From: Nitrospirota bacterium
Lineage (GTDB): Bacteria > Nitrospirota > UBA9217
Length of the DNA stretch: 37,450 nucleotides
Assembly (NCBI GenBank): GCA_029858565.1
Contig: JAOUEV010000035.1
Location: forward strand, 1-37,450
Direction: 5' to 3'
The notes beneath the pieces are model-generated. The model was not told the DNA's origin, did not search any database, and worked only from the letters and a program-made list of their open reading frames with translations. The translations under genes were made by a program, and so were the position numbers. Positions 8,581-37,450 of this stretch are shown piece by piece; the first letter of the stretch is position 1, and each line of letters opens with the position of its first letter.

Positions 8581-9958
<1,378 letters not shown>

Positions 9959-9966
<8 letters not shown>

Positions 9967-16501: not shown

Positions 16502-16507
16502 GATTAC

Positions 16508-16615
16508 GTCAGCGACGAGCGACAAGTGACAGGAAGTAGACCTGAAGCGAGCTTACCTGGTCTCTTTTTTCCCGTCTTTCATCCCTCGTCCCACTTCTCT
16601 GGTATCTCTTCTCTC
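16508..16615. repeat. Second purine/pyrimidine GACGAG-type inverted repeat
   Basis: A purine-rich half (CAGCGACGAGCGACAAGTGAC at its start) is followed by a pyrimidine-rich half with CCTCGTCCC, TTCTCTCG and CCCGTC words, the same layout as 12-106. It fills the gap between the tandem universal-stress gene and the second sigma-54 regulator. The inner words GTAGACC and GGTCTC can pair. Confidence 0.45.
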
Positions 16616-18076: not shown

Positions 18077-19846
18077 ATGCAAATCGTAAAGATCGAAATC
18101 CGCAACTTCAGATGTATTCAGCATGCCGTCATCCACCCGGTGAAAAACAGTGTCCTGCTCGGCCCGAACAATATCGGGAAAACGGCTATCCTGGAAGCCA
18201 TAAACCTCGCCTTGAATCCCGAGGCCGGAGCGCGCTGGAAAACCATTGATGAAAATGATTTCTATGAACGCAAGTATCTACCGGACGATGGCGGCGAAGC
18301 TCCGCATATACGAGTCGAACTGGTAATTGCAGGAATGAATGCCACGGATGAGGATGTATTCCGCGAAAACCTAGTGCCATGGAAACCCGAGCAGCAGGAA
18401 GTGATCGAGACGACGGAAGAAGGCGTTGACCCGTTCGCTGATGCGGTTTCCGCTATCCGGGTGTTCTTCGACGGTTGGTATGATGCGGAAGAGGATGAGT
18501 TCAAATCGGGGACCTTCTTCCTGCGCGCCAAGGATCTCAAGCGGGAAGAATGCCCAGCCTTCACCAAGCAGCAAAAGCGCCACATCGGCTTCCTTATCTA
18601 TAGAGATTTTAGAGCGCTCACTCGGCCAATCACGCTAGAGGCCGGCAATCTTTTTAGTACCCTGCTGCTCAGCCAGGAAGTTCGGCCGAAGCATTTCGAG
18701 GAGGCATTAGAAGGCGTTCGGAACGCCCTTGATCCGATGGTGCAAGAATCGGATTTCTCCGCGTTGCTCGCTTCTTACAAAGCGGAAGTGGAGCGTTTCC
18801 TGCCGCTGGCCGGCGATGAGCATCCTAGCTTGCGCTTCGAGCTTACCGATTCAACCCGGGACCAGGTCAAGTCGGCATCCCAGCTTTACGTTTCGTCCGG
18901 GTGCGGCAAACCGATACAAAAGATGGGGGCCGGATCGCGGAGCCTTTCTGTGCTGGCCATACTCACGCTCATCATGCGCCGGAGACAGGGAGGCATCTTA
19001 GCCCTCGAAGAGCCGGAAACATTCCTTTACCCTCACGCCCAGCGACGCGTCATTGATGAATGCTTGTCGCTTGCGTCACAGACGCTCATCACTACACATT
19101 CGCCTTTCGTCCTCGAACGGACGCCAGTCGAAGGCGTGGGGCGAGTGGAAAACCAGGCCGGTCAGGTCAAATGGCGACCCCTGACGACATCGAAGGTGAA
19201 GCAAATCAACCTGTACTCAAAACGGCTGAGGCAGGTTCATTGCGAGGCCTTGATGGGACGGGGCGTGATCGTCGTGGAGGGCGATTCCGACCGATGGTGG
19301 CTGATGGGAGTCAGCAACGCCATGAATAGCCAGGCCTGGAAGGGTCGGAAGCTAGAGGCGTTGGAGCTCCAAGGCATCTCGATAGTTAGCGCCGATACGA
19401 ACGGCGACATCCACAAGCTCTGCCAGTTCTTCTACGATTCAGGCTTGCGGACTATAGCGCTTTTCGACAATACAAGCGACCCTGCTTTTCTGGACGAAGC
19501 CAATACGGCGCCATATCCGAGTATCTTCCTCCAAGCCAGTGGCCTTGAAGAGGTGCTCTCCGAACGTCTTCATGTCGACTTGCTCCGGCAAATGCTTTCC
19601 AAGGCGCCTCACTCGCGGGCGGCATTGCTGGATGAGGCTGCGGCCAGTGGTCTTCCTGAAGCCGAGGTTAGGAATCAGAGCAAGGAGTTCCTGAAGACGA
19701 ATAAGGGATCAGGCCCTTTGCATTTTTGGCTGATCGAACAGGTCGAGGCCACTGGGTTCCCGGATGCTCTTTGCGCCGTATGCGATCTGGCTGCTGCATA
19801 CGCGGCACGCCATGAAGACGTTTACACTTGCACATTATTATGCTGA
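18077..19846 (+). CDS. gajA: Gabija GajA-like OLD-family ATPase/TOPRIM nuclease
   Basis: A 589-residue protein with an ABC-type ATPase split by an insert and a C-terminal TOPRIM nuclease. Walker A is GPNNIGKT (29-36), the signature GAGSRSL (284-290), Walker B ILALEEPE (307-314), and the H-loop TTHSPF (339-344). TOPRIM acidic residues appear in VVEGDSD (E401, D403, D405), VSADTNGD (D440) and ALFDNTSD (D464). In Gabija, GajA is a nucleotide-sensing nicking endonuclease assembled with GajB. Length (Bacillus GajA is about 580) and the adjacent UvrD-like gene both fit. There is no clear ribosome site at the ATG. OLD nucleases also occur alone or with other partners, but the pairing makes Gabija the best call. 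Confidence 0.88.
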   Translation: MQIVKIEIRNFRCIQHAVIHPVKNSVLLGPNNIGKTAILEAINLALNPEAGARWKTIDENDFYERKYLPDDGGEAPHIRVELVIAGMNATDEDVFRENLVPWKPEQQEVIETTEEGVDPFADAVSAIRVFFDGWYDAEEDEFKSGTFFLRAKDLKREECPAFTKQQKRHIGFLIYRDFRALTRPITLEAGNLFSTLLLSQEVRPKHFEEALEGVRNALDPMVQESDFSALLASYKAEVERFLPLAGDEHPSLRFELTDSTRDQVKSASQLYVSSGCGKPIQKMGAGSRSLSVLAILTLIMRRRQGGILALEEPETFLYPHAQRRVIDECLSLASQTLITTHSPFVLERTPVEGVGRVENQAGQVKWRPLTTSKVKQINLYSKRLRQVHCEALMGRGVIVVEGDSDRWWLMGVSNAMNSQAWKGRKLEALELQGISIVSADTNGDIHKLCQFFYDSGLRTIALFDNTSDPAFLDEANTAPYPSIFLQASGLEEVLSERLHVDLLRQMLSKAPHSRAALLDEAAASGLPEAEVRNQSKEFLKTNKGSGPLHFWLIEQVEATGFPDALCAVCDLAAAYAARHEDVYTCTLLC

Positions 19847-19852
19847 TCCGTT

Positions 19853-21526
19853 ATGTTCACCCCGACCCCTGAGCAGCGCACCGTCATCGATACTGCCAAT
19901 TCGGCCATGGTCATTGCCGGCCCTGGCACCGGGAAGACGCGGACTGCGATTGAAAAAGCGAAACTGTATTGCAGCCGCCTGGATGCCCAGAAAAGGCAGA
20001 AAGTCCTTTTCTTATCATTCTCCAATTCGGCCGTCCGCCGTTTGTCAGAGGCGGCCGCGGTCAATTTTTCCGCCCGGGATCGCCGCCATCTCCGTTTTGC
20101 CACGTATCATTCGTACGCGGCGGAATTACTGAGGCATTACGGGCGATTTGTCGGATTGCCGCCAAAGATCCAGATAATGGACACGATCGAGCAGGCGTTG
20201 ACTCTGCTTGAGATGTCGATAGATTTCACGGCCGATACGAGGGATGAAGTGCTGAGGTCGCTCGCGAGGCAAGGCCGGCTGGGATTCGATGTTCTCATCC
20301 CGTTGACCATAAGGCTGCTCGAAAGCGCTCCGACGCTGAGACGTATCGCCACTCGCTGCTACCCGCTCGTGATCGTCGATGAATTCCAGGACACGAGCGA
20401 ACATCAATGGCGCCTCCTGCAATTGATCGGAGCGGACACCCAGGTTCTCGCCTTCGGAGATCCGAATCAGATCATCTACTCGTCGTTGCATGGCGCAACA
20501 GTTAAACGCTTCGAGCAGTTCCAGTCCTGGAAGATGATCGAGCCGCACGGATTTTCCCGCCATAATTATCGCTGTGAGCAGACAGACATCCTGGGTTTTG
20601 CCGAAGCGCTGCTGTCAGCTTCGCCGTTCACTCCTCCGGAAAAGTCATCGATGCAGATCTTCAGACTCCAATACCGCCCTCAACTGCGTTCCGCCCTGGC
20701 ACTCATTTGGAAAGCCATTCAGGAACAAGGAGGGACCGCCCCCACCGTCGGGATCATAGTGCCTTCAAACGCGATAGCGGACGAGATTGCTGTGGCATTG
20801 CGGAACCCGCCTGCAGAAGCGCAGGTGAAGATCAAAGTGTTCGCGAAGCAGATAGCCGATGGCGCTGCTTATGACGCGGTCATCCTGGCAGTATTGGCAC
20901 TTCGGGACTATTCGCATACGCGCTCACAAGCGTCTCTTCGCAAATTCGCGATGGCGCTACATGCGATGGACATACATTGGAACCGCAGGAAAAAAATGAC
21001 CCTGAAGAGCGTCAATCAGTTGGAGAAGTCATTGGCCAAGATATTGTCGGATGGCAGTTCCAGCCTTTCGGCGCTGGCGGCAAGACTGCTTTCGATTGCA
21101 GATGTCCGCGAGATTGTACCAGCGTTTGTGGCTGCTATCGGTGGGGTCCAGGAATGCGAGGTTGCCTGCCGCCGAATTGCATCGCATGGGAAATTGCCGC
21201 TTCCACATGTAGATACCGGCCAACAGCTCGAACTATTCGATCTCATGCGTCAATCAAGAACGGTAAGAGGGCTGGAAGGGTATGAGATAGGGGCGGCAAA
21301 AACGGAAATAATCACTTACCATCGCGCTAAAGGCCGCGAATTTGATTTCGTATTGATGTTGGTCGATCCTCGGAGCGAGAGCTCGAAGACGCCCATTGAT
21401 GAATTGCGTCGTCTTTACTATGTTTGTGCGACTCGTGCTAGGAGGTGGCTTGGCCTGATCTGTTACCAAAACGATATCGGCCGGGTGCTCGGCCCTGTGC
21501 TCTCACCGGCTACGAATCAGCGCTAA
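19853..21526 (+). CDS. gajB: Gabija GajB-like UvrD/Rep superfamily helicase
   Basis: A 557-residue superfamily 1 helicase beginning six bases after gajA. Motif I is AGPGTGKT (22-29), motif II VIVDEFQDTS (173-182), motif III FGDPNQIIYS (201-210), a motif IV-like region follows, motif V is TYHRAKGREFDFV (488-500), and motif VI RRLYYVCATRARRW (519-532). In Gabija the helicase-like partner binds the GajA tetramer and is thought to be stimulated by DNA ends released by GajA. It is somewhat longer than the Bacillus protein (about 490). Lacking its own ribosome site, it is probably translated by coupling. After the stop only 95 bases separate it from the facing tniQ gene. Confidence 0.87.
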   Translation: MFTPTPEQRTVIDTANSAMVIAGPGTGKTRTAIEKAKLYCSRLDAQKRQKVLFLSFSNSAVRRLSEAAAVNFSARDRRHLRFATYHSYAAELLRHYGRFVGLPPKIQIMDTIEQALTLLEMSIDFTADTRDEVLRSLARQGRLGFDVLIPLTIRLLESAPTLRRIATRCYPLVIVDEFQDTSEHQWRLLQLIGADTQVLAFGDPNQIIYSSLHGATVKRFEQFQSWKMIEPHGFSRHNYRCEQTDILGFAEALLSASPFTPPEKSSMQIFRLQYRPQLRSALALIWKAIQEQGGTAPTVGIIVPSNAIADEIAVALRNPPAEAQVKIKVFAKQIADGAAYDAVILAVLALRDYSHTRSQASLRKFAMALHAMDIHWNRRKKMTLKSVNQLEKSLAKILSDGSSSLSALAARLLSIADVREIVPAFVAAIGGVQECEVACRRIASHGKLPLPHVDTGQQLELFDLMRQSRTVRGLEGYEIGAAKTEIITYHRAKGREFDFVLMLVDPRSESSKTPIDELRRLYYVCATRARRWLGLICYQNDIGRVLGPVLSPATNQR

Positions 21527-21620: not shown

Positions 21621-23003
21621 TTATCGCTGTCGCCCTCTATCTTCTTGACTACTCCGAATTACTTCTTCGCAGATCGCGTGACACGCTAATTTGTTTTTAC
21701 CTTTGATTATTAGTAGATTACCTCCTAGTCTCTCTCCGACCAATCTTGTTGTCGGCTCTATCCCTTCTGACATTAACTTCGCAGCGCATTGACGAAACAA
21801 GTCATACCTCTGTTCGACCATACTCTTTTGTTTAGAGGTTCTGTAGGCTTGGTTGCGTTGAAGAATTCTTCTTTCAATATCTGGATAATCCCGCCTAAGT
21901 CTGCGTCGACCCATACCTATTTTCGCCACTGCAGAAGTTAAGCTTATTGGATGAATGTCGGTAAGTAGAGCTTCCAATCGTCTTTTTACAACGTTCTTAC
22001 TAAGCTTTCGTCGTTTATTCGTTCGAAATGGCTTTTGTGTTCTGTCTTGGATGTCTAGTGTAATCTCTCCAAACGCGACTCGATCACCCAGCATCACATC
22101 AACCATGGAACATTGGAATGTCAATGCAATTTCAACAATTTGATATAAAGAAGGGAGGTGAGTCCGATGGATCCAATTATGTAGCGATACTTTATCGATG
22201 TGTAGCATTTTTGCGAATGCCGTCGCATTCCCTTTAGCAAAATATCGTACAGCATTATTGAGAAATACGTCAATTCCATTGGTTCCTTCTTTCAATCTTT
22301 CTATATCAGTCAACATATCCCCAACAATTTGCGCGCGCTTAATTTCCCTCTGCGAAGCAGCTGTTGTCATGTTCATGCTGGTTTCGACAAGCGGCCGACC
22401 GCAAGAGCTACATATCCCGGGCAAGTATATTTTGGCTGGTTTTACCTTACTGAAGTTTGACTGTGAGTCTTCATTATTACAAATGCAATTACTGACTAAA
22501 TTAACTCCATGTTTTGGACATACACTCACAGCGGCTATTTCCCATAAAAGATGTCCGTATACCCGACCATCACGTGCCGCTTCTGAAAAACACAGGGGAC
22601 ACCATCTCTTCATGTCGATCATTAGTCGCTTCGTACTGGTATATGGCCTTAAAGCAGTGAGCGTTAAATCGTCAAGACCCGCTTGCCCTGTGAGGCTACT
22701 TAAGAGTTCAGCCCACTTCTCAGGGACAGCGCCAATTCCGTTGAACAGCGGAAGATTCCACTCCTGGAAGTTATGCCCAAAGCGTTCTAATCCTAATCGC
22801 GGAATAATTATGTCCTTTGCCATGATCCTTGGAGAAACATGGTGCATATGGGCAAGTGTGAGGTAGTAGCTTCTGAGACTTTCGCAATGTGGTGTCCCTG
22901 CCCCAAGGGGTTTTAATGACGCTAAAACTGACCTCTGAGGTATCACTGCAGACGGATCTGTTCCCACTAGTTCGTAAATTTCTTGGCAACCCATTATCGG
23001 CAC
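21621..23003 (-). CDS. tniQ: TniQ/TnsD-like target-selection protein
   Basis: A 460-residue TniQ-family protein. The hallmark zinc site is WCPLC (C135, C138) with VCPKH (C162, H165); further cysteines follow in CICNN and GICSSCG (C198, C201). A helix-turn-helix appears near 265-300 (KMLHIDKVSLHNWIHRTHLPSL) and a second near 355-375 (SAVAKIGMGRRRLRRDYPDI), as in longer TnsD-like members that read a fixed attachment site. It should bring TnsC to the target. The frame can begin at GTG 23,003, with AAGG nearby, or at ATG 22,994, which overlaps the tnsC stop by one base. No Cas protein is nearby, so DNA-sequence targeting is more likely than RNA guiding. Confidence 0.85.
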   Translation of the reverse strand: MPIMGCQEIYELVGTDPSAVIPQRSVLASLKPLGAGTPHCESLRSYYLTLAHMHHVSPRIMAKDIIIPRLGLERFGHNFQEWNLPLFNGIGAVPEKWAELLSSLTGQAGLDDLTLTALRPYTSTKRLMIDMKRWCPLCFSEAARDGRVYGHLLWEIAAVSVCPKHGVNLVSNCICNNEDSQSNFSKVKPAKIYLPGICSSCGRPLVETSMNMTTAASQREIKRAQIVGDMLTDIERLKEGTNGIDVFLNNAVRYFAKGNATAFAKMLHIDKVSLHNWIHRTHLPSLYQIVEIALTFQCSMVDVMLGDRVAFGEITLDIQDRTQKPFRTNKRRKLSKNVVKRRLEALLTDIHPISLTSAVAKIGMGRRRLRRDYPDIERRILQRNQAYRTSKQKSMVEQRYDLFRQCAAKLMSEGIEPTTRLVGERLGGNLLIIKGKNKLACHAICEEVIRSSQEDRGRQR

Positions 23004-24079
23004 GCTACCTTTTCGCTAGTGCGAGATTCAGCATTAAGACTTCCGGAACCAAAAATTGCCTTTGCTATATTCTGTTCTCCCTTCAGCGTTTCTTCAAGGA
23101 TGCGCGCAATCTGTCCTTCGGTAAGAAGGGCCTTGAATAGACACTTATCAGTCCATCTCCCCTTATTCCGGACTGCAAACGTTAGCATTCTTTGAAGAGT
23201 GTCTTTAAGAATACCCACACATCCAACGCATGCATACTGAAGTTCATCGGACATTTCTGTCAAATCCGGGATTCCTTTAAGCGGAAAGTACTCCTGAAGC
23301 GTGCCCAGACTATTTCTGAATGCCTTCTTGTCCGCATCATTACCAGTACCGCTTAAGTATCTCTGAAAGTGTACGATAGCGCATCGTCTCGCGAACTGCC
23401 CACTCAACGTCATTAGCTCATAGAGATCATAGGAACCTATTAGAGCCAGGGTCAAATTTACTCCCTTGAGTTCTGTCAGCGCTTTTAAAGCATCCATATG
23501 AACAAGTCGGTCATTCTCATTGGCACCTCTTATGAGGTGAACAACCTCATCAACAACAACCAGAAGCGTGCGCCTAAACCGAAGTGCATCTTCAATGGCC
23601 ATACGAAGTCCAGCCACAGTGCTCCCCGCTGTAACGGATTTTACAGACATACGACCGTCCTGAAGTCGGGTCTCCTGCTTCTTATCCATAAGAGGCTCTT
23701 TAAGTAGCCGCCCTAACTCGATATAGAAAATTCGCCAGGAGAATCTTTTCTCACCGGATGCGGGAGCTGAAATGTATATTGCCGGAATAAAGCTTAAATC
23801 ATTCACCAATTCAGACTTATGTGCTTTGATTATCTCTTCCACAAGTGATTCGCCAAGCGTTGTCTTCCCCGCACCTGTAGGACCAATCAATAAAGCTATA
23901 TCTGTTCCGGATCCTGGCAACATCATGGTTTCTAAATCATCACGAACGGTTGTTACTCTGGGGTGCTTCACCCGGACTCGATAGAAATAGGCTAGTTTCT
24001 CATCATCAGAGAGCAACATTGCCTGCTCAGGGGTCATGATCTTTGGGTTAATGTTAGGATCTATCTTAGAATAATCCAT
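22994..24079 (-). CDS. tnsC: TnsC/TniB-like AAA+ transposition regulator
   Basis: A 361-residue AAA+ ATPase that links the target-selection protein to the transposase. Walker A is GPTGAGKT (66-73), Walker B TLLVVVDEVVHL (D177, E178), a sensor region LALIGSYDL lies near 211-219, and basic residues follow at FARRCAIVHFQRY. The open frame runs further upstream, but the ATG at 24,079 has GGAGG and overlaps the end of tnsAB by 14 bases, so I use it. The tail (about 340-361) is short and serine-rich. It is the middle gene of the tnsAB-tnsC-tniQ operon. Confidence 0.88.
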   Translation of the reverse strand: MDYSKIDPNINPKIMTPEQAMLLSDDEKLAYFYRVRVKHPRVTTVRDDLETMMLPGSGTDIALLIGPTGAGKTTLGESLVEEIIKAHKSELVNDLSFIPAIYISAPASGEKRFSWRIFYIELGRLLKEPLMDKKQETRLQDGRMSVKSVTAGSTVAGLRMAIEDALRFRRTLLVVVDEVVHLIRGANENDRLVHMDALKALTELKGVNLTLALIGSYDLYELMTLSGQFARRCAIVHFQRYLSGTGNDADKKAFRNSLGTLQEYFPLKGIPDLTEMSDELQYACVGCVGILKDTLQRMLTFAVRNKGRWTDKCLFKALLTEGQIARILEETLKGEQNIAKAIFGSGSLNAESRTSEKVACR

Positions 24080-26813
24080 ATTCAGATTCTTCCTCCTCGG
24101 GTGTATTTGCGGAGCAAGATTGCGCCAAAGATAAGGCAGGTTTCGATAACGATGGTAGCTGTATGCCGGAGGAATTGGCCGAATTTTTCTGATCTTGGGT
24201 TTCAATATTCTCAATTGCCATCATTCCCAGATGCCCATAGACTATCAAAGCTTCTCTATGCTGCTCTCTCAGCCGTTCGTCAAAATTCTTGGCATCCATG
24301 ACCCTGAGCCAGTCCGCAACGCGCTCGGGAGACAGTTCTTTCTTCTTTACGTTGTGCTTTTTTGCAAGCTCGTCAAATGCGTAGCGCAACTCTATCCTGC
24401 TAAGACGACGAAGACGCCATACCAACTTGGACTCGCACTGTTGCCACTCATTGTTCACAAGTGCATAAACGTACCTCACATCCCATGGATCAATTCTGAT
24501 TTCGACTGGCTTCTTATGTAAGCCTGCCGTCGACAAGGTATTATTCCAATACCAAATGTTGTTTATCTTGACACCGCGCTGACCATCAACGACGCGGCTT
24601 CCCGTGGCATCGGGAGCAGGGCATGTTTCGATCCGAAACGTTCGGTCGAAGCGAACGATACGGTGAAGGCGCATTCCGGTTTCAGCCATTCTTCTAAGAA
24701 AATGCTTTACTGGTTCTTCTCCGTGTGCCGGATGATTTTCCGTTCCATAGAGTTTTTCAAAATAGAAATCTAGCGCTCCATGCAACGCAGGCAATGTCCA
24801 TTCGACAAAGTTCTTGGGATTGACGGACTTTGTGATCATCCGGAGGTGTTTCCGCAGTTGAGTATTTCCACTAAGATTATGAATTAACTGTGACTGGGTT
24901 ATTCCGAAGAGACGTTCAATCACAGCACCATGGCGTGGTTCACCTGCCGGGCGATATCTGATACTACAGCCGTATAAACGACAAACACGTTTGAACGCTC
25001 TCGATTTGAATTCTTTCCCATTGTCGACAACTATCATATCCGGCATCCGACCGTGTCTACGAACAATATCCCGAAGTAACATCATGCATGACTTATAACT
25101 GGCCTGTTCAAAGGATAGATAGAAACCTACTACGTTACGTGATTCGGCATCGATTGCCAGTGAAAGCCAGACCGTCCATTTGGATCTCTTCAAGTTCGGC
25201 GAGCACAGCAATATTTCCAGCGGTGTGTGATCAAAATGTACATACTGAAAAGGACGAACACCATGAATATGCTCATCCAGTTTCAGGTACCAAACAATGG
25301 GTTGAAGCTGATAATGTGACCGTTTGCCTTTCCGCTTACGAACCGACGTAAGTCTATCGATCTCTTTATTACATGTTTTTTGCGAACAGACTTTGACACC
25401 CGCAGATTGACAAGCTTCGAGCACCAGCGTGTATGCCATCTTCTTGTTTATGTTTGTAGCGGTGTTGAATTTGTTCACGACAATTGATTTTATGATATCG
25501 ATTAGAATTTGAGGAATTTTCCTCTCGCGGTTCCCGCAATTCTCGTAATTTGGAACAAGGGCCATATTTTGGTCCAGTACATTTTCGCCCGCTTCCCTAA
25601 TGGCTTGTCTATATCTCTGCAAAGTACGTTTTGATACTGTTACGAGCTCTGGTGCAGTGTCAGAATATTCCAGTTGTTGTGCTCTACGGAGTGCCCAGTC
25701 CATTTCTTTAGGCGACAATGAAGCTGGCGACTCAGTTGTTATTTCACGATTAGGAGATATTATGGACAGCTTTCCTGCCGCGTATTGCTTTTCCAAAACT
25801 TCAAGTGAAAGCTCGGTAGTACCATCGTCGGCCGATAACATTACTGATTTCTGTCCAACAAGAGCGATCGTATAAGTTTTGCCGTCGTAATTTACTTCAG
25901 TCCCAACGGTAAATGAGACATCTAATCTAGACGTCTCATCATCATCCCTTGAATCTTCAATTCGCTGATAGAAAGCGAGTGTAGTTTTATCTCGATAAAC
26001 GCGGGCGCTATCCGTTTCGGAGATATCATCATTCATTATGTCAAAGGCTATGTGCCCATCGACTATCGCCTTGTATATATCATCGGCAGACACACGCGCA
26101 GAGGGATCTACGTCATGCTCGTCTTCCGCGGCTATCGCATCTTTACCACATGCCGAGTATTTCAACAGTTCCCCTATCGTGGCCACTGCATTTTCGGCAA
26201 GAATGTCATGGATAAGATCTATTTTCTTTTGATCAACGGGAATGCAGGATGGGGAATAGTAATCGGATAGAAACTCAAGGTTGCTGACATACTGTCGCGG
26301 ATGCTCATCCGATGAACGAAGGCGATAGGTTATGCCTCTATCGGAAAGAAATTCTTCAACTGCCGGAAAACGCCACTCTCCATTTTCCTTTACGAATCTT
26401 CCCGGGTACTTTGAAGCGAGTTTCTCGAGTCTCTTTTCTTGCCGCCACTCTTCGATAAGTATCTGGTCATCACGAATAATAAGAAAATCCGGTGCGTGTT
26501 GTATTCTTGTTTTTTGGGCTCCGCCGTTAATAGGAAGGATAAGATCAAGGTAACAAGGTTGGGGATAGTATTCGATTACATGCGAATCATGTTCATATTG
26601 GATTACTGCAGGAAACTCCACGGTCCTGCTTTCCGTGCCGATGTGCATATCCCGACCCATTTTCTTGCTTGCGTACAATGTGATCACATTGCCGGAATTA
26701 GATTTTATATCTCTGACAGGAGATTCTCTTCTTGCCTTTTCAACGAGACGTCTACCTTCGGGAGGAGTGCCAAGTCTATCAAATAACAAATTAAGATCAG
26801 TAATGGTCATCAT
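24066..26813 (-). CDS. tnsAB: TnsA-TnsB fusion transposase of a Tn7-like element
   Basis: A 915-residue protein joining a TnsA-like endonuclease region to a TnsB/Mu-type transposase. The TnsA-like part (about 1-190) has E61 in GTESRTVEF, D109 in HAPDFLII, and ILIEEWRQEKRL where TnsA normally shows its catalytic lysine motif; a winged-helix-like segment follows (SDRGITYRLR...). A region near 365-500 has helix-turn-helix character. The DDE core has D528 (HFDHTPLE), D597 (VVDNGKEF) and E633 (VIERLFG), giving D,D(35)E. A Mu-type beta-barrel (about 735-800) and an acidic tail close it. The ATG has AAGGA at seven bases. The fusion should cut both strands at the ends if the TnsA part is active, giving cut-and-paste transposition. 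Confidence 0.87.
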   Translation of the reverse strand: MMTITDLNLLFDRLGTPPEGRRLVEKARRESPVRDIKSNSGNVITLYASKKMGRDMHIGTESRTVEFPAVIQYEHDSHVIEYYPQPCYLDLILPINGGAQKTRIQHAPDFLIIRDDQILIEEWRQEKRLEKLASKYPGRFVKENGEWRFPAVEEFLSDRGITYRLRSSDEHPRQYVSNLEFLSDYYSPSCIPVDQKKIDLIHDILAENAVATIGELLKYSACGKDAIAAEDEHDVDPSARVSADDIYKAIVDGHIAFDIMNDDISETDSARVYRDKTTLAFYQRIEDSRDDDETSRLDVSFTVGTEVNYDGKTYTIALVGQKSVMLSADDGTTELSLEVLEKQYAAGKLSIISPNREITTESPASLSPKEMDWALRRAQQLEYSDTAPELVTVSKRTLQRYRQAIREAGENVLDQNMALVPNYENCGNRERKIPQILIDIIKSIVVNKFNTATNINKKMAYTLVLEACQSAGVKVCSQKTCNKEIDRLTSVRKRKGKRSHYQLQPIVWYLKLDEHIHGVRPFQYVHFDHTPLEILLCSPNLKRSKWTVWLSLAIDAESRNVVGFYLSFEQASYKSCMMLLRDIVRRHGRMPDMIVVDNGKEFKSRAFKRVCRLYGCSIRYRPAGEPRHGAVIERLFGITQSQLIHNLSGNTQLRKHLRMITKSVNPKNFVEWTLPALHGALDFYFEKLYGTENHPAHGEEPVKHFLRRMAETGMRLHRIVRFDRTFRIETCPAPDATGSRVVDGQRGVKINNIWYWNNTLSTAGLHKKPVEIRIDPWDVRYVYALVNNEWQQCESKLVWRLRRLSRIELRYAFDELAKKHNVKKKELSPERVADWLRVMDAKNFDERLREQHREALIVYGHLGMMAIENIETQDQKNSANSSGIQLPSLSKPALSLAQSCSANTPEEEESEYGLF

Positions 26814-27224: not shown

Positions 27225-27932
27225 ATGTTAAAGTTGAAAATGCTGAGAATCGCCAGGAAATTCTTCGGATACACACAGGAAGAACTCGCAGAAAAGATTG
27301 GAACCAGTCAGAAATATTATACGCAGATTGAAAACGGGCTATCGAAGTCAAATCCGATCATCAGCAAGCTCGCAGGAATCCTTAACATCAAAGAATCCTT
27401 TCTAGGCTCATCCGGAGAATACATTGAGTATCCGTTTCTCTCCGACTTTTACACCTTCTGTTTAACTGATAAGGAGATATTTGAACTTTACAAGAATATT
27501 TCAGAGTATGTATGCTCGCCGTCTGAATTTATAGACATCGTCTTTCTTCTCATTCGCCCATCCTTAATTCGTGTTGCGCCAACGCTAAGTGGTTACCCAG
27601 TTATCTATTTCGCCATAAGAGACGATAGAGACACGGTATTTCTCTTTAGGAGAAAAATACGGACTAGGCGCCTGGCAATAGCAAACAAACCTCGCAATGA
27701 CAATAAGGAAATAGAAATCCGTTCATTTGCGCGGGTTGATTCCTTTCGCGTAATGCTACACAGCTTGCCAGGTACGTATATATTGGAGTCGACCAGAATG
27801 ATTTCAGATGAACTTCACAAACAAATCGAAGATGGATCTGTTTCAAGAAACGATATTGTGCAGCTATTTCCCGATGCAAAGTATTTCCAGGGCCAATATC
27901 TAGCGCATACGAAGATAAGAAGTCGACGCTAG
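27225..27932 (+). CDS. XRE-type helix-turn-helix regulator, long C-terminus
   Basis: A 235-residue protein with an N-terminal XRE/Cro-like DNA-binding domain (about 5-60, GYTQEELAEKIGTSQKYYTQIENG) and a C-terminal region (about 70-235) that I do not recognise. The C-terminus is rich in aromatic and basic residues and lacks visible catalytic motifs. The start has AAGGAAGGA at the right distance. The gene is clearly more AT-rich than the three genes after it, so it may have a separate origin. It ends 15 bases before the methyltransferase-like gene and probably regulates the block, as controller proteins do for restriction-modification systems, where methylation must come before cutting. Confidence 0.75.
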   Translation: MLKLKMLRIARKFFGYTQEELAEKIGTSQKYYTQIENGLSKSNPIISKLAGILNIKESFLGSSGEYIEYPFLSDFYTFCLTDKEIFELYKNISEYVCSPSEFIDIVFLLIRPSLIRVAPTLSGYPVIYFAIRDDRDTVFLFRRKIRTRRLAIANKPRNDNKEIEIRSFARVDSFRVMLHSLPGTYILESTRMISDELHKQIEDGSVSRNDIVQLFPDAKYFQGQYLAHTKIRSRR

Positions 27933-27947
27933 TTTTCGGACTTGCCC

Positions 27948-28598
27948 ATGAACCTGATCAAGTCAAAACAACGTATCGCGGATCACGGGGAGGTATTTAC
28001 CCCCGCGTGGATGGTCGATGCAATGCTCGACCTCGTTAAGGGCGAGACCGAGCGCATTGACGCCCGTTTCCTGGAGCCGGCGTGCGGGAGTGGGAACTTC
28101 CTCGTACGCATTCTACAGCGCAAACTCACTGCCGTCGAACTCAAATACGCGAAGTCCGACTTTGAAAAGCGACACTACGCACTTCTCGCTGTGATGTGCA
28201 CTTACGGGATTGAGCTTCTGCCGGATAACATCGCCGAGTGCCGCGCAAACATGCTCGAAATCCTTGCCGACTACCTGAATCTCGACGAGTCGGATGACCT
28301 GTATCGAGCCGCCTTCTATGTGCTATCGCAGAACCTCGTCCACGGCGACGCCCTGAAGATGCGGGCCAGCGATGACCAACCGATCACTTTTGCGGAATGG
28401 GGATACCTCGGGAAGGGGAAGTTCCAGCGCCGCGATTTCCGTTTGGACGTGCTGACGGGGGCGTCAGCTTATAGCAGGGAGGGCGATCTCTTTGCCAACC
28501 TGGGTAAACACGAGATCTTCACGCCGACCAAGACCTACCCGCCGATGACGGTGAGCGAGCTTGCCGCTAACGGCGGTGCACCGAAGGAGTCAGTATGA
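27948..28598 (+). CDS. Half-length adenine methyltransferase-like protein, no NPPY
   Basis: A 216-residue protein with the front part of a gamma-type N6-adenine DNA methyltransferase. It has DHGEVFTPAWMVDAMLDLV (motif X, about 12-30), the SAM-binding FLEPACGSGNFLV (motif I, about 41-53), a motif II-like stretch LLPDNIAECRANM, and NLVHGDAL (motif III-like). The catalytic motif IV (NPPY) is absent, and the protein instead ends in a unique tail with HEIFTPTKTYPPMTVSEL. It probably binds SAM but cannot methylate alone. It overlaps the next methyltransferase by four bases (ATGA). ATG 27,948 is preferred over TTG 27,942. It may be a partner subunit or a SAM-sensing component. Confidence 0.75.
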   Translation: MNLIKSKQRIADHGEVFTPAWMVDAMLDLVKGETERIDARFLEPACGSGNFLVRILQRKLTAVELKYAKSDFEKRHYALLAVMCTYGIELLPDNIAECRANMLEILADYLNLDESDDLYRAAFYVLSQNLVHGDALKMRASDDQPITFAEWGYLGKGKFQRRDFRLDVLTGASAYSREGDLFANLGKHEIFTPTKTYPPMTVSELAANGGAPKESV

Positions 28599-30194
28599 CA
28601 GGCCAGGCCCTCTTTGCGCTTCGTGGCAGGAATCCGGATGTGCTGACCTGCATTGCGAACCTCTCGAACGATGAGGTGTTCACGCCTCCTGAATTCGCGA
28701 ACAGGATGCTGGATACCCTTGCCGAGGCGTGGGCGGCCAACAGCAAGGGCGCGAACATCTGGGCGGATAGTTCGGTGAAGTTCCTTGACCCGTGCACGAA
28801 GTCCGGCGTTTTCCTCCGTGAGATCACCAGCCGACTCAATAAAGGCCTGGCAGACGAGATCCCAAACCTCGAGGACCGCGTCAATCACATCCTAACGAAA
28901 CAGGTGTTCGGCATCGGAATCACGCATCTTACGAGCCTGCTTGCACGCCGGAGTGTGTATTGCTCGAAGCACGCAAAAGGCAAACACTCCATCACGAAGT
29001 CCTTCCGTAGCGACGAAGGCAATATCTGGTTCAAACGAACCGAACACACTTGGGTTGATGACAAGTGCGAGTACTGTGGCGCAAGTAAAAAGGCCCTTGA
29101 CCGTGGTGAGGGTCTTGAAACTCACGCATATGCGTTCATCCACGCCGACAATATCAAGGCCCGATTTACCGAGTTGTTTGGAGGCACTATGCAATTTGAC
29201 GTAGTCATTGGTAATCCCCCGTATCAGTTGGATGATGGCGGTTATGGCACGAGCGCAGCTCCGATCTATCAGCTGTTTGTCGAAAAAGCCCTTGAGCTCG
29301 ATCCACGCTACGCCGTGTTCGTGACGCCTTCAAGATGGATGGCTGGGGGAAAGGGGCTCGACAAGTATCGTGAGCGTATGCTCTCCGACAAGCGTCTTCG
29401 AAATATCGTAGACTATCCGAAGCTTTACGAAGGCTTCCCGGGGGTGAAGATTCGCGGGGGCATCTCTTATTTTTTGTGGGAGCGGGAGCACAAAGGCCCG
29501 TGCGAAGTTCAGACGATTTGGGACGGTCAGCCGACGGGACCAGCAGTTGCACGCTATCTCGATGCGTATGACATCTTGGTGCGGCGCAACGAGGCGGTCC
29601 CGATCCTGGAGAAGGTCAGAGCGAAGAGCGAGCAGACACTCGACACACGTGTTTCAAGCGGAAAACCGTTCGGATTACGCACATTCTTTCATGGCAAGCC
29701 AGCCGCAAAAGGTCTCAAGAAACCGGTGAAGCTCTTCGGGTCACAGAAGATCAGCTGGGTGGAGCGGTCTGCAATCACCGTGAATCCCACGTGGATAGAC
29801 GAGTGGAAAGTACTTATGACGGCTGTGCAGGGAACGAGTGCGGCGGTTGAAACCAAGTTCCTCAGCAAGCCCATCATCGCTGAACCGGGCACGGCCTGTA
29901 CTGAGACCTACCTTGTTGCTGGCCACTTCGACAATGAGACGACAGCAACCAACTACGCAAAGTATCTGCGCACCCGGTTTCTTCGTTTCCTGGTCTCCCT
30001 ACGCAAAGCTACTCAGCACGCCACTCGCGACGTATATGCCTTTGTCCCTGACTTGCCGTTGGACAAAGAGTGGACCGACGCTAAGCTCTACAAGCGTTAC
30101 GGCCTGACCAAGGAAGAGATCGCCTTTATTGAGTCGCAAGTCGCTGAGCACGACAGCGAGCTGTTTGAGGAAGGCATTGCCGACGAAGGTGGCG

Positions 30195-30202
<8 letters not shown>
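28595..30202 (+). CDS. Eco57I-like N6-adenine DNA methyltransferase
   Basis: A 535-residue methyltransferase. Motif X is NDEVFTPPEFANRMLD (25-40), motif I FLDPCTKSGVFL (63-74; the usual GSG is replaced by TKSG), and the catalytic motif IV VVIGNPPYQLDDGG (203-216). Between I and IV lies a cysteine/histidine cluster (C123, H125, C158, C161), perhaps a zinc ribbon. Residues about 300-500 should hold the target-recognition region, and the tail is acidic (EEGIADEGGDE). It overlaps the half-methyltransferase upstream by four bases and the helicase downstream by eight. It is probably the modification enzyme of a restriction-modification system. Confidence 0.83.
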
Positions 30203-32732
<2,530 letters not shown>

Positions 32733-32949: not shown

Positions 32950-34602
32950 TTAGACTTCCCTCATTACGCGAAGGGGCGTCACATTCACGCTAGCTATAGG
33001 CTTTGGCGTGCTTAAGTATGCCTGATAACTGCTCGACGACCTTAAAAGATAGCTTCGCCCTTCAATCACAAAGCCATCTAATTTCTGCTTTACGACATAT
33101 GATGATAGATCATCTATCTTGTTTATAAATCCTCTACCATTGAAGTTCAACGAGGTGTTGCACAAGACACCGTAACCAGTACGCGCCTTGAATGCGATGA
33201 GCAAATTGTACAAGCTTCGGTTGGTCGCAGACGACACTGTCTGAATACGGGCAGTCCTATTCACGTGAGTAACAGCCGCCAGCGCATTCGTTCTTACACT
33301 ATACGTATAAAGCATATGCGGACTCGCGTGGTCGCAGCCAAACCACCGCACAGCATCTTCTTCCAAGCAAACAGGAGCAATCGGACGGAATTGCTCACGC
33401 TGCTTGATCTCATTTAACCTCGCTCTGGTGTTATCACGGAATGGTGCCGCAAGAATTGAACGGTTGCCCAAGGCCCGAGGACCGATTTCATATTTGCCGC
33501 TCACCCATGCCAGAATGAGGTCATTGGCCAACATGTCTGCAATCATTTCATCATCAGCCTCGTAAAGATCATACTGCGACATATCGAAAGACCAAGTCGT
33601 GTCGAAGCTAAGGCCTGAATAGACGTTCCAATCAATTTTTGGGTTCCCCGTAAAATGGAACTGGGCGTCGATCGCTGTCCCGATCGCAGAACCTGAATCG
33701 TTTGCAACAGGCGGCACGAAGACCTCGGGAAAAAGGCCTGATTCCTTCCACTTGGTATTCCAGTCGCAATTCAGGCCACATCCACCTGCAATAATCAGCG
33801 GCATTCTTTTCTTCATGTTCGCTTTCGCGAATTGATAAAATATATCAAAGATCTTGTTGCTAAAAATACCTGCGAAGTTGCGAAATTCTGGATCATCTAC
33901 GCCCACATTATGGTACGGCAAATGGCTCGTGTCTCCGTGCGCGGTCAGTTCGAGGTGCGGGCAGTCTTGCAGCAGAAAGTCGATCAACTGTTTCTCGTCA
34001 GCTGAGGGAGTGCTGCGAACGGAAAATGAGGCTAAAGCCATGAGCTTCCCAGCGTCGGCAAACCGAGAAAAGGGTGAATTCTTAGGAAATGCTGGATCGG
34101 CCAAGCCGTAGAGCAGGGCATACCGATGCCCAGGCTCATGCATGACATCTGCAAGTAATGTGATGTTCAGCTCAGAATCGATTTCGTAAAAGGCGCCAAT
34201 CCCCCCCTCCCATGTCAACCCATAGCATGGTGTGCCCTTAGGCAGGTTTGACATACCGAAAGCGCAAAGAAGGTGTGATCGTTCGTGCGAAGACGAGAAG
34301 TACACTATTGGTTTTCCCAGAAGGCGCCGTTGGCCAGTGACAATGTCGTTCTTCAACACGCCACGGTACCCGGCAACAATGCGCGAGCCGGTGACGCTGT
34401 CGTCGCACGGCCACCAACCGCCCGTACAGAGAACATCGGGCACTTCTTCGAGTTCGCCAAGAATGTCGACGACATCATGGCTGGATATAGGTGAGTGTCG
34501 ATAATGTGAGTTCTTCTCCGACTCTATCGAAAATCGTAAACGAGCATCCTTTAGATAGGCGATGCCCCCGTCATGGCCGGGGTTATACGAGAGAATATTC
34601 AT
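32950..34602 (-). CDS. NodU/CmcH-family carbamoyltransferase
   Basis: A 550-residue O-carbamoyltransferase that would use carbamoyl phosphate and ATP to carbamoylate a sugar hydroxyl. It shows the N-terminal ASKHA-like start MNILSYNPGHDGGIAYL, the metal-binding HERSH (H106, H110), AGGCGLNCDWN near 285-295, and the YrdC-like C-terminal signature EIGPRALGNRS. The expected metal-site aspartate region reads GLTWEGGIGAF, with E132 instead. I chose the ATG at 34,602, which has GGAG eight bases upstream and lies five bases after the stop of the glycosyltransferase fusion, so the two are one operon. Relatives act on Nod factors and antibiotics; the context here is a surface glycan. Confidence 0.87.
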   Translation of the reverse strand: MNILSYNPGHDGGIAYLKDARLRFSIESEKNSHYRHSPISSHDVVDILGELEEVPDVLCTGGWWPCDDSVTGSRIVAGYRGVLKNDIVTGQRRLLGKPIVYFSSSHERSHLLCAFGMSNLPKGTPCYGLTWEGGIGAFYEIDSELNITLLADVMHEPGHRYALLYGLADPAFPKNSPFSRFADAGKLMALASFSVRSTPSADEKQLIDFLLQDCPHLELTAHGDTSHLPYHNVGVDDPEFRNFAGIFSNKIFDIFYQFAKANMKKRMPLIIAGGCGLNCDWNTKWKESGLFPEVFVPPVANDSGSAIGTAIDAQFHFTGNPKIDWNVYSGLSFDTTWSFDMSQYDLYEADDEMIADMLANDLILAWVSGKYEIGPRALGNRSILAAPFRDNTRARLNEIKQREQFRPIAPVCLEEDAVRWFGCDHASPHMLYTYSVRTNALAAVTHVNRTARIQTVSSATNRSLYNLLIAFKARTGYGVLCNTSLNFNGRGFINKIDDLSSYVVKQKLDGFVIEGRSYLLRSSSSYQAYLSTPKPIASVNVTPLRVMREV

Positions 34603-34606
34603 AATG

Positions 34607-36775
34607 CTAGCTCCGTTGCCGATTCGCTTCCAGCGCAATCGATCTTATGAAAGTGGTTGTTGGGAGTCGTCGGCTGGTCAGCCGACCGGCAAGCTCTTTG
34701 GAGCGTGATGGCCAAGCGTTTACATGGAGGGCCATCGGAAGATGGGGAATCGGTGTAGGTTCCCAATCAGCACGCCTATGAACTAGACGATTGTCAACAA
34801 ACCAGCGAATCTCGCTCGGCCCCCATTCTATCGCGAACCGATGGTCAGATTCTGATGCGTCAAAACCAAGGTCGATATAGCTTGCTGCACCTCTATATCC
34901 GTAGTCAAACTTCGCTCCCTCGCCACCAGGATTGTAAAAGACATTGACCAAGAGACGATCTGTTCGATTTCCCGCAATTTCGATATCAATTTCCTGCCTC
35001 GGTGAATCGCGATGGAGAAAGAACCCGGTAACCACACCGGGTACGTTTGACGCCTTAAGGATTGCCTCAAAGCTTCCGAATAAGTATCGGTCGCGACTTG
35101 TTAACGATGCAGCGCTATATTCTCGAACACCTAGGGATTCTCTCCTTATACTGAGCGCAGCCCCGATCCCAGAACGAAACTCGACGTTTGAGGGACGAAA
35201 CAACGCCAGGTTGTCTGTGAAGGTATCGTCTCGCAGAAGCCAACGACTTGTGTCGAGAAGTTCTAAGGAGTCGTTAATTCTAACGGGAGTTGCAGCGCTC
35301 GATGCTGTCCCATTTGTCGGGACGGATCGAATGCCTTGCCACCACTGACGGGGCTCAACAACCCATGGAGACTTATCGCGTTTCGTCGTCTTGCAGCTTA
35401 GGATTGGACACGCTTCGATGGGTCCTCCGATGAGCTGTCTCTGGCCAAGGTCAGTGAGATTAGGAAAGGAACAGGCTGGCGGCGCGCAGCTAAGGTGTTC
35501 ACAAACGACATGCCATTTATTGGATGCTTCTGAATGAAGAACGGCAATATCGGCGCCTTTGAGATCACCGGCAATATTTAAGTCAGAGAAGTCTTCAATT
35601 CTAGCCTTGCCAGTGGTGATTATAAACTTAGCTTGGGGGTAACGCTCCCTGAGCTCTCGGACTTTGCCTGCCAGCAATCTGATGTTTACATATGCGTCAA
35701 ACACCCGATCACCGTGCCCTGCCAAAAGCTGCTCAAGCTCAGGACCGGGAAGCGCCTGGAGGTCACTACAGCATCTGTATCCAAGCATGGAAAGGGCCAT
35801 TGCGAGTGATGTAAGACCAGAACCTTCGGGTCCAAAAGCAAACACAGGCCCCTCAGTTGGACGACCGTGGAACAGAGATGCCGCTTCACTGGTGATAGCG
35901 CCAATTTTGGTAAGAGCGGGGAGTATTGAATACGAGTTGGTGGAGCTAGCATCGCGTCGCTGACTAATAATAGACCGTCTTGTCGCGAATACATCCAACA
36001 CATCGAACTGGTGGTTTATCCAGAGGTCCACTGGCCCACGACAGGGGAGGAGTCGGAGTAGCTTTTTAGCGCCTTCGCGGGAAAGAACGTATCCAGACAA
36101 GTGCCAGAGTCCACGCACAGGACGGTAAACGTTATCTGAAAGAAAGGTCTTCGGGGCACCGTGCTTCACTTCTACATATGACACGTAGAGGATGTCGAAA
36201 TTGCCAAGCCTGTCTCCATTGGTCTTGATTTCGCCCCACGCTTGATCCAGATGTGAAGAAAAATTGGATTGGAACCACACGTCGTCCTCAAGGATGAGCA
36301 CATGCTCATGTTTACCAGCCGCGATCTGTCTCCATACGTTGATGTGTGAGCGAGCGATCGCAACCTCAGGTCGACTCATTCGAATCGGAGAATTCAGTTC
36401 AAGCCGTGTGGGGAGAGTTAGCGGTTGGGGCTCCACGAAGAGCTGCTCTCCAAGTGTATAGATTGGATCAATGTCGGCATCTTTAAGAGGCTCCTGCGTG
36501 AAGTCCTTAGCATCAACGGCGGCAGACCGCTCAGCAAGATACCAGAGTTCAGCCCCCGACCAATCTAACACGTGTCTTAGCTCCTGCTCCAACTCGGCCC
36601 AACGAGTTGGTTCGCGATTAAGATTGATGGCGTAAATGCGCTCTATCCGCGGCCGTTCCTTTGTATTCAAGTGGCCGAATGCTTGACATCTTTTCTTCGG
36701 AAGCAACCTCCGACATTTCATCGCGATGCGAAACAAGAACTTCGAAGGTGCGCGCCAGGGAGAGGCGAGGTTCAT
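34607..36775 (-). CDS. GT25 - sulfotransferase-like - GH16 fusion protein
   Basis: A 722-residue protein with three recognisable parts. Residues about 43-290 are a GT25 (LPS-type) glycosyltransferase: RIYAINLNREPTRW at the start, then VLILEDDVWF with the EDD metal site (163-165). Residues about 308-450 begin VFAFGPEGSGLTSLAMAL, like the 5'-phosphosulfate loop of sulfotransferases, and continue with KFIITTGKARIED; the region is short and may be inactive. Residues about 505-718 are a GH16 jelly roll with QEIDIEIAG, matching the EIDIE catalytic pattern (E595, E599), and DASESDHRFAIEWGPSEIRWFVDN. There is no signal peptide, so it is probably cytoplasmic. A GAGGGGG site precedes the ATG. It may build, sulfate and trim or transfer one glycan. 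Confidence 0.8.
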   Translation of the reverse strand: MNLASPWRAPSKFLFRIAMKCRRLLPKKRCQAFGHLNTKERPRIERIYAINLNREPTRWAELEQELRHVLDWSGAELWYLAERSAAVDAKDFTQEPLKDADIDPIYTLGEQLFVEPQPLTLPTRLELNSPIRMSRPEVAIARSHINVWRQIAAGKHEHVLILEDDVWFQSNFSSHLDQAWGEIKTNGDRLGNFDILYVSYVEVKHGAPKTFLSDNVYRPVRGLWHLSGYVLSREGAKKLLRLLPCRGPVDLWINHQFDVLDVFATRRSIISQRRDASSTNSYSILPALTKIGAITSEAASLFHGRPTEGPVFAFGPEGSGLTSLAMALSMLGYRCCSDLQALPGPELEQLLAGHGDRVFDAYVNIRLLAGKVRELRERYPQAKFIITTGKARIEDFSDLNIAGDLKGADIAVLHSEASNKWHVVCEHLSCAPPACSFPNLTDLGQRQLIGGPIEACPILSCKTTKRDKSPWVVEPRQWWQGIRSVPTNGTASSAATPVRINDSLELLDTSRWLLRDDTFTDNLALFRPSNVEFRSGIGAALSIRRESLGVREYSAASLTSRDRYLFGSFEAILKASNVPGVVTGFFLHRDSPRQEIDIEIAGNRTDRLLVNVFYNPGGEGAKFDYGYRGAASYIDLGFDASESDHRFAIEWGPSEIRWFVDNRLVHRRADWEPTPIPHLPMALHVNAWPSRSKELAGRLTSRRLPTTTFIRSIALEANRQRS

Positions 36776-36803: not shown

Positions 36804-37450
36804 TCATTCTCGATAGCCTCGGCAATTCGAAAGCCTCCAGTTCCTGGGGTCATTCCTATAACTGAGCTGCCATCTGCTTTTGGCAATATTTTCCCATTCA
36901 CACAGCACGAGCAGGGACTGTTCGATTTCGTCGCTCTCAGTTGCAGCGTCATATATCGATTTGGTGAGATTCCCGGGGCCAGTCGTCGATTGGATTTCAG
37001 GCAAGCCGTTCGTCACATCTTTTTCAAGAGATCGGGTGGCTTGATCGAGTGCGCGCTCTATGAGGGGATGGCCGCTGCAAGCAATTAGCGGATTGTTGTT
37101 AAAGTAGAAGATCCAGCTCGGGGCGTTTGCTCCTGGCTTAGCGAAGAGCGATGGAGGCACCATCATATTCGTCGCCATATCATAGCATAGAGGTTGAATT
37201 TTTAACCGACTATCACAGAAGAGGTGTTGGATTTGAGACCCATCGTACACATCATCAGCATCTATGTAGCAGCCACCCTCCACGAGGATATAGCAGAGTC
37301 GAAAGTAGTCTGACTGCATTGCCGGGTGATAGCACTTGTCGTAGGCCCGTTTGTGCCGTGGGCTCAGTCTTCGACAAATAAAATCTCTTGCTTGGTGCTT
37401 GTCGAAAAGGAGTCTCTCAACGCCCTGTTCCTCTGTCCTCCTCCATGTTT
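36804..37450 (-). CDS. GT32-like glycosyltransferase, 5' end beyond window
   Basis: The minus-strand frame stays open to the window edge, so the N-terminus is missing. The visible 215 residues include RLSPRHKRAYDKCYHPAM, then SDYFRLCYILVEGGCYIDADDVY, the conserved segment of GT32/OCH1-type transferases whose DAD/DxD residues hold the metal and sugar nucleotide. An ATG at 37,319 lies inside this conserved helix and is not the true start. A later segment has SGHPLIERALDQATRSLE and TTGPGNLTKSIYDA, both typical of the family's C-terminal half. It ends 28 bases before the GT25/GH16 fusion gene and is part of the same surface-glycan operon. Confidence 0.82.
   Translation of the reverse strand, partial: TWRRTEEQGVERLLFDKHQARDFICRRLSPRHKRAYDKCYHPAMQSDYFRLCYILVEGGCYIDADDVYDGSQIQHLFCDSRLKIQPLCYDMATNMMVPPSLFAKPGANAPSWIFYFNNNPLIACSGHPLIERALDQATRSLEKDVTNGLPEIQSTTGPGNLTKSIYDAATESDEIEQSLLVLCEWENIAKSRWQLSYRNDPRNWRLSNCRGYRE

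Follow-up and report, generated by a model that had tools for sequence, protein, structure and literature searches.

The 37,450-nucleotide contig JAOUEV010000035.1 of a Nitrospirota bacterium, analysed over its whole length and called the window below, carries a gene for a fusion protein in which a GT25 glycosyltransferase domain, a degenerate sulfotransferase domain and a GH16 glycoside hydrolase domain follow one another. It stands in the order GT32-type glycosyltransferase (GT) gene, fusion gene, carbamoyltransferase gene, and we lean towards the view that this cassette is a mobile anti-phage glyco-enzyme module of defence islands, with the fusion as its core protein. This reading builds on the architecture of the fusion, the catalytic residues of its GT25 and GH16 domains, the loss of its motifs for 3'-phosphoadenosine 5'-phosphosulfate (PAPS), the operon linkage of the partner genes, transfer across phyla, and mobile and defence-type surroundings. 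The parts of the cassette in the window are as follows.

34607..36775 (-): fusion protein GT25 - pseudo-sulfotransferase - GH16, a single open reading frame of 722 aa, with 79 full-length sequences
36026..36637 (-): GT25 domain, residues 47-250 (Pfam PF01755, E 5e-13)
36281..36289 (-): EDD motif of the GT-A fold transferase, residues 163-165, invariant in 79/79
35426..35854 (-): degenerate sulfotransferase (pseudo-sulfotransferase), residues 308-450 (Sulfotransfer_4 in 73/73, fold search, PAPS motifs lost)
35804..35833 (-): remnant of the 5'-phosphosulfate loop, GPEGSGLTSL, residues 315-324, with the canonical [KR][ST]G in 1/79
34694..35137 (-): GH16 domain, Pfam residues 547-694, whole domain about 495-718 (Pfam E 2e-27, own-genome search, structure)
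34979..34993 (-): GH16 catalytic motif EIDIE, residues 595-599, with E595, D597 and E599 invariant in 79/79
36804..37448 (-): upstream GT32-type glycosyltransferase (Gly_transf_sug with DXD; Pfam PF04488, E 7e-6), cut by the contig end (37450)
32950..34602 (-): downstream NodU/TobZ-type O-carbamoyltransferase, 550 aa (Pfam Carbam_trans_C, E 7e-54, and Carbam_trans_N)

The 722-aa frame is genuine, and neither chance nor an assembly fusion can account for it. It opens with ATG and runs without a break, the domain order is the same in all 79 full-length sequences (the window's included), and full-length homologues with this order lie on closed plasmids, on Escherichia coli chromosomes and at about 80 loci of GTDB species. 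An assembly fusion of separate genes, which the original prediction had named among the findings that would overturn it, was rejected since the same frame recurs in dozens of independent assemblies. That prediction had placed three enzymes in one chain, and this is confirmed by the frame, by the GT25 and GH16 profile matches and by sulfotransferase homology in the middle; when the three segments were searched against profiles, GT25 and GH16 scored above cut-off, and the middle did so once scanned alone. Its further statement that no enzyme of this order had been described agrees with the literature searched, which holds nothing on this cassette (preprints and most subscription journals lie outside its coverage, so that a recent description could be missed), but the genome survey found the order itself to be widespread. 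The AlphaFold2 model of the fusion, built with 73 sequences in the alignment, has a mean predicted local distance difference test score (pLDDT) of 84 and a predicted template modelling score (pTM) of 0.76. Note that genome annotation of the homologues reads only 'family 16 glycosylhydrolase'.

Both terminal domains retain their catalytic signatures. The GT25 domain scores 49.8 bits in Pfam against a gathering cut-off of 24, human procollagen galactosyltransferase 1 matches fusion residues 134-262, and the acidic metal-binding motif EDD is found at residues 163-165, as predicted, so that the GT25 call holds with a complete signature. Known GT25 transferases (PF01755; LgtB-type lipopolysaccharide (LPS) transferases, COLGALT1) share with it the whole Pfam domain, the EDD motif and the predicted GT-A fold; unlike them, the domain in the window is fused to a pseudo-sulfotransferase and a GH16 domain and lies outside any LPS cluster. 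The GH16 domain scores 96.6 bits against a cut-off of 22, and the EIDIE motif lies where it had been claimed, I596 being as invariant as the three acidic residues. Lichenases are its closest solved relatives (3i4i, E 6.7e-17), and the GH16 part of the AlphaFold2 model is a complete jelly roll that matches 3i4i with a template modelling score (TM) of 0.85 of the target. With GH16 beta-glucanases (lichenase BglS, ExoK, Crh transglycosylases) it thus has in common the complete jelly roll and the invariant ExDxE, whereas it is only about 25-30% identical to them, has no signal peptide, occupies the C-terminus of a cytoplasmic fusion and scores far under the BglS and ExoK equivalog cut-offs.

We found no export signal: no N-terminal 19-residue window exceeds 1.6 on the Kyte-Doolittle scale in 79/79 sequences. 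An exported GH16 was rejected because the N-terminus has no hydrophobic stretch; it instead forms a conserved basic, amphipathic-looking helix ending in 'RRLLP'. The earlier proposal of a cytoplasmic GH16 joined to a transferase therefore stands, and both transferases and the GH16 domain would act on an intracellular glycan.

The middle domain is a sulfotransferase relative that has lost the residues for PAPS. On the whole protein, Sulfotransfer_4 matches residues 311-388 below the cut-off (E 1e-3), whereas on the middle domain alone it passes (25.3 vs 22.8 bits), and it is the match for all 73/73 middle domains in the family. A middle-domain profile finds solved sulfotransferases in the PDB (E 3e-5), with the segment '..W..LC..L....P...P' aligned. 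The best whole fold for the domain modelled alone (pLDDT 81) is that of Schistosoma sulfotransferases (TMq 0.54, probability 0.99, E 0.03), with zero Foldseek matches below E 0.001; the homology rests on sequence. The sulfotransferase core is cut down to about 140 residues here. PAPS-dependent sulfotransferases require a basic residue in the 5'-phosphosulfate loop and a pair of 3'-phosphate residues. In this family, the basic residue before [ST]G is missing in 78/79 homologues, the position aligned with the 3'-phosphate Arg of the sulfotransferase chain 5tiz (389) is Arg in 2/79, the Ser position (397) is unconserved, and in two divergent members, from Sphingobium and Rhizobium, the loop is gone altogether. 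An active PAPS-dependent sulfotransferase was rejected on this motif loss. GPEGSGLTSL, which had been taken for a PAPS P-loop, is thus correctly assigned to a sulfotransferase relative but is only what is left of the loop, the residues for binding and activating PAPS being gone; of the two sites proposed for structure prediction, the GH16 domain is complete in the model, whereas the PAPS site has lost its motifs. Compared with Sulfotransfer_4 enzymes (Schistosoma SULT-OR, SgdX2), the domain shares the homologous core and the C-terminal segment, but lacks the helical lid as well as the PAPS residues. Other positions (MLGYRCCSD, DAYVN, W421, P433, P438) are nearly invariant although the PAPS motifs are lost, indicating that the domain is kept for a role other than sulfation; judging from this conservation, it most likely binds a ligand or substrate. 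The domain is a clean example of how a sulfotransferase fold can be put to another use once its chemistry is lost. Note that a Cys-Cys pair at 335-336 (76/79) and Cys425 (77/79) are also near-invariant, with no obvious role.

The fusion gene travels with partners. A GT32-type gene lies directly upstream in 80 of the 81 loci with room for it, at a gap of at most 60 nucleotides in 76 of them and often with a 4-nucleotide overlap; PGAP names the E. coli gene 'glycosyltransferase family 32 protein'. A NodU/TobZ-type carbamoyltransferase, usually downstream, is present in 36 of the 59 loci that leave space for it on either flank. Its N- and C-terminal domains are both present, HxxxH is kept in 41/42, and it matches the NodU NCBIfam equivalog at E 2.6e-70 but with 237.8 bits, short of the 1000-bit cut-off. 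Pairwise distances correlate among the three domains of the fusion (rho 0.87-0.89), between the fusion and the GT (rho 0.90) and between the fusion and the carbamoyltransferase (rho 0.80), indicating that the fusion is old and that the three genes are inherited and move as a unit. Where the carbamoyltransferase is missing, no third gene replaces it, as examined by neighbour clustering (each cluster recurring in at most 8 of the 87 loci), and genes for a polymerase, a flippase or sulfate activation do not accompany the cassette. In Rhizorhabdus wittichii RW1 (L004:15001-19781), an IS4-family transposase gene interrupts the carbamoyltransferase but leaves the GT and fusion frames open, which fits a dispensable carbamoyltransferase. 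The carbamoyltransferase gene lies upstream and on the opposite strand in loci L050, L054, L055, L057, L059 and L066, and also in prophages L090 and L091. In Aliarcobacter butzleri p83 (L006:14089-14938), the GT gene is broken up into two frames; it is whole in A. cryaerophilus pCNAC48 (L139:9093-9938).

The cassette has spread sparsely across phyla by horizontal transfer, on mobile elements. A tblastn search of plasmids gave nine full-length homologues of the fusion: on Citrobacter freundii IncC (59% identity), R. wittichii RW1 (58%), Klebsiella michiganensis (48%), four Aliarcobacter (44%), Sphingobium (37%) and Rhizobium leguminosarum (38%) plasmids. When each GTDB species was represented by a single genome, a scan gave 148 relatives, and most of the best 80, which were kept, cover the whole query at 41-82% identity, with up to 82% between phyla. 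In a tree of 73 sequences, 19 named phyla require 26 label changes, and well supported branches break up several of the phyla. Many of the records come from metagenome bins and may be misbinned, but the carriers also include isolates of Pseudomonadota, Bacteroidota, Actinomycetota and Campylobacterota. The carriers include conjugative IncC, IncFII and Sphingomonas plasmids, an integrative and conjugative element (ICE) in E. coli, and three prophages, found as IMG/VR contigs; the GenBank phage set contains no cassette homologue. Weaker viral GT25 matches (L092-L121), which align with just a portion of the query, were set aside. In the window itself, a CheA gene at the opposite contig end shares 72-75% identity with CheA of the nearest relatives, and no fusion homologue was found in 60 relatives of the genome, indicating an acquired island on a native contig.

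The right half of the contig holds, ahead of the cassette, the following features.

18077..21526 (+): Gabija system, GajA (PADLOC, E 3e-116) and GajB (E 5e-81), about 11 kb from the cassette
21621-26813 (-): Tn7/Tn5053-like transposition module TniA, TniB, TniQ, between Gabija and the restriction-modification cluster
27225..32732 (+): restriction-modification cluster with a helix-turn-helix gene, Eco57I-type methylase pieces and a T5orf172-ResIII helicase

Similar company is kept elsewhere. On conjugative plasmids, the cassette neighbours DUF262, Abi, Shedu, RES/Xre and multiubiquitin/ThiF genes, and the E. coli ICE also holds an ABC-three-component system; across loci, the defence-type neighbours include Gabija, OLD, type I restriction-modification, GmrSD/DUF262, Shedu, Abi, ABC-three-component and multiubiquitin/ThiF. 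The order in prophage L089 is scaffold (reverse), terminase, portal, DNA methyltransferase, GT, fusion and carbamoyltransferase. Since P2-like phages have an antiviral hotspot between gpA and the portal gene gpQ (Rousset et al., PMC9122126), the cassette in L089 stands to that side of the portal gene on which the hotspot lies. The three cassette proteins of the window are matched by no model of PADLOC-DB (2023) at E <= 0.01, so that the cassette shares neighbourhoods with the systems catalogued there (Gabija, restriction-modification, OLD, Shedu, others) but not their proteins.

From these observations we infer catalytic activity, a substrate, an order of steps and an anti-phage effect for the module. 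GT32 and GT25 would build a short glycan in the cytoplasm, attached to a hydroxyl group of a molecule from the phage or the host; the GH16 domain may trim, release or transfer that glycan; the dead sulfotransferase domain may bind the ligand or substrate without sulfating it; and the carbamoyltransferase, where present, would cap a hydroxyl group. The benefit would be protection against phages or rival mobile elements. More specifically, and only tentatively, the cassette may represent a new antiviral class in which intracellular glycosylation, with optional carbamoylation, marks a phage or host target, the glycosidase reverses or transfers the mark, and the dead sulfotransferase acts as ligand sensor. 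We know of no bacterial antiviral system with carbohydrate-active enzymes at its core, nor does the literature searched describe one, and if the defence reading holds, the chemistry would be unlike that of any catalogued system. That the cassette is kept in at least 19 phyla, Gram-positives and candidate phyla included, suggests a target common to nearly all bacteria or their phages and argues against any clade-specific polysaccharide. Naming the substrate would bring to light either a new chemistry of defence or a glycosylated target that is widely shared, and the E. coli ICE copies make the cassette directly testable with standard laboratory phages.

The defence neighbourhood was quantified by a PADLOC scan that took in, at each of about 80 loci, the four genes closest to the cassette (E <= 1e-15), in which 114 proteins matched 169 families and 121 proteins matched 272 families, counts of redundant families rather than of genes; 109 control proteins from random positions in the core of the same genomes gave 0 matches, these regions being core-like chromosome and not other islands. 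Besides the limits of both counts, further points weigh against an antiviral role. Some PADLOC matches are false (NtrC-type regulators match RtcR), many cassette neighbours are ordinary genes, and, to our knowledge, none of the enzyme activities of the cassette is a known defence mechanism. The defence neighbours show residence in variable islands, and such islands also hold metabolic cargo. The cassette could accordingly be ordinary cargo with a metabolic use, linked to defence merely because all cargo collects in islands, and UbiD/UbiX and glyoxalase genes do adjoin it in the E. coli ICE. Since many islands unrelated to one another independently link the cassette with defence genes, a prophage has it by the portal gene and the control genes gave no match, we regard this as very unlikely. 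Note that the window contains two NtrC-type sigma-54 regulators (8581-9966 and 15188-16525) which strongly match PADLOC RtcR as false positives.

A less likely alternative, though the strongest of the others, is that the cassette modifies a surface glycan in the manner of serotype conversion or superinfection exclusion, so that a decorated lipid-linked or cell-surface glycan hides the cell from phages or conjugating plasmids. GT25 is best known from LPS synthesis, such genes are frequent on prophages and plasmids, and the basic N-terminal helix of the fusion could sit on the inner membrane. However, the cassette brings along no membrane protein, flippase or polymerase and no export signal, the GH16 is cytoplasmic, and the Gram-positive, Chloroflexi and candidate-phylum carriers share no LPS. 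The carbamoyltransferase invites a different thought, namely that plasmid or island cargo makes a small carbamoylated glycoside serving as antimicrobial, signal or protective metabolite: TobZ carbamoylates a small aminoglycoside and NodU a lipo-oligosaccharide, and an optional carbamoyltransferase resembles a tailoring step. We consider this improbable, as conserved genes for scaffold synthesis, transport or self-resistance are lacking and the neighbours vary from locus to locus. Another NodU/TobZ relative, the phage 5-hydroxymethylcytosine carbamoyltransferase, acts on nucleic acid (PMC8670742), and the window gene shares with this group both domains and HxxxH. In contrast to that phage enzyme, the cassette has no thymidylate-synthase-type hydroxymethylase nearby and no sign of a 5-hydroxymethylcytosine substrate, so that DNA modification of this kind is only a distant analogy.

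That the fusion serves a sulfated polysaccharide as transglycosylase or length-setting enzyme, as first suggested, is the least credible of these readings. It is true that GT25 and GH16 share one cytoplasmic chain and that the closest GH16 models include ExoK, from a succinoglycan cluster, and Crh transglycosylases. Sulfation itself finds no support, however, since nearly all homologues lack the PAPS-binding residues, and the cassette has no polysaccharide genes nearby and is scattered over phyla without a common polysaccharide. Returning to the neighbouring genes of the window, the methylase of the restriction-modification cluster is apparently split into two overlapping frames, 27942-28598 and 28595-30202.
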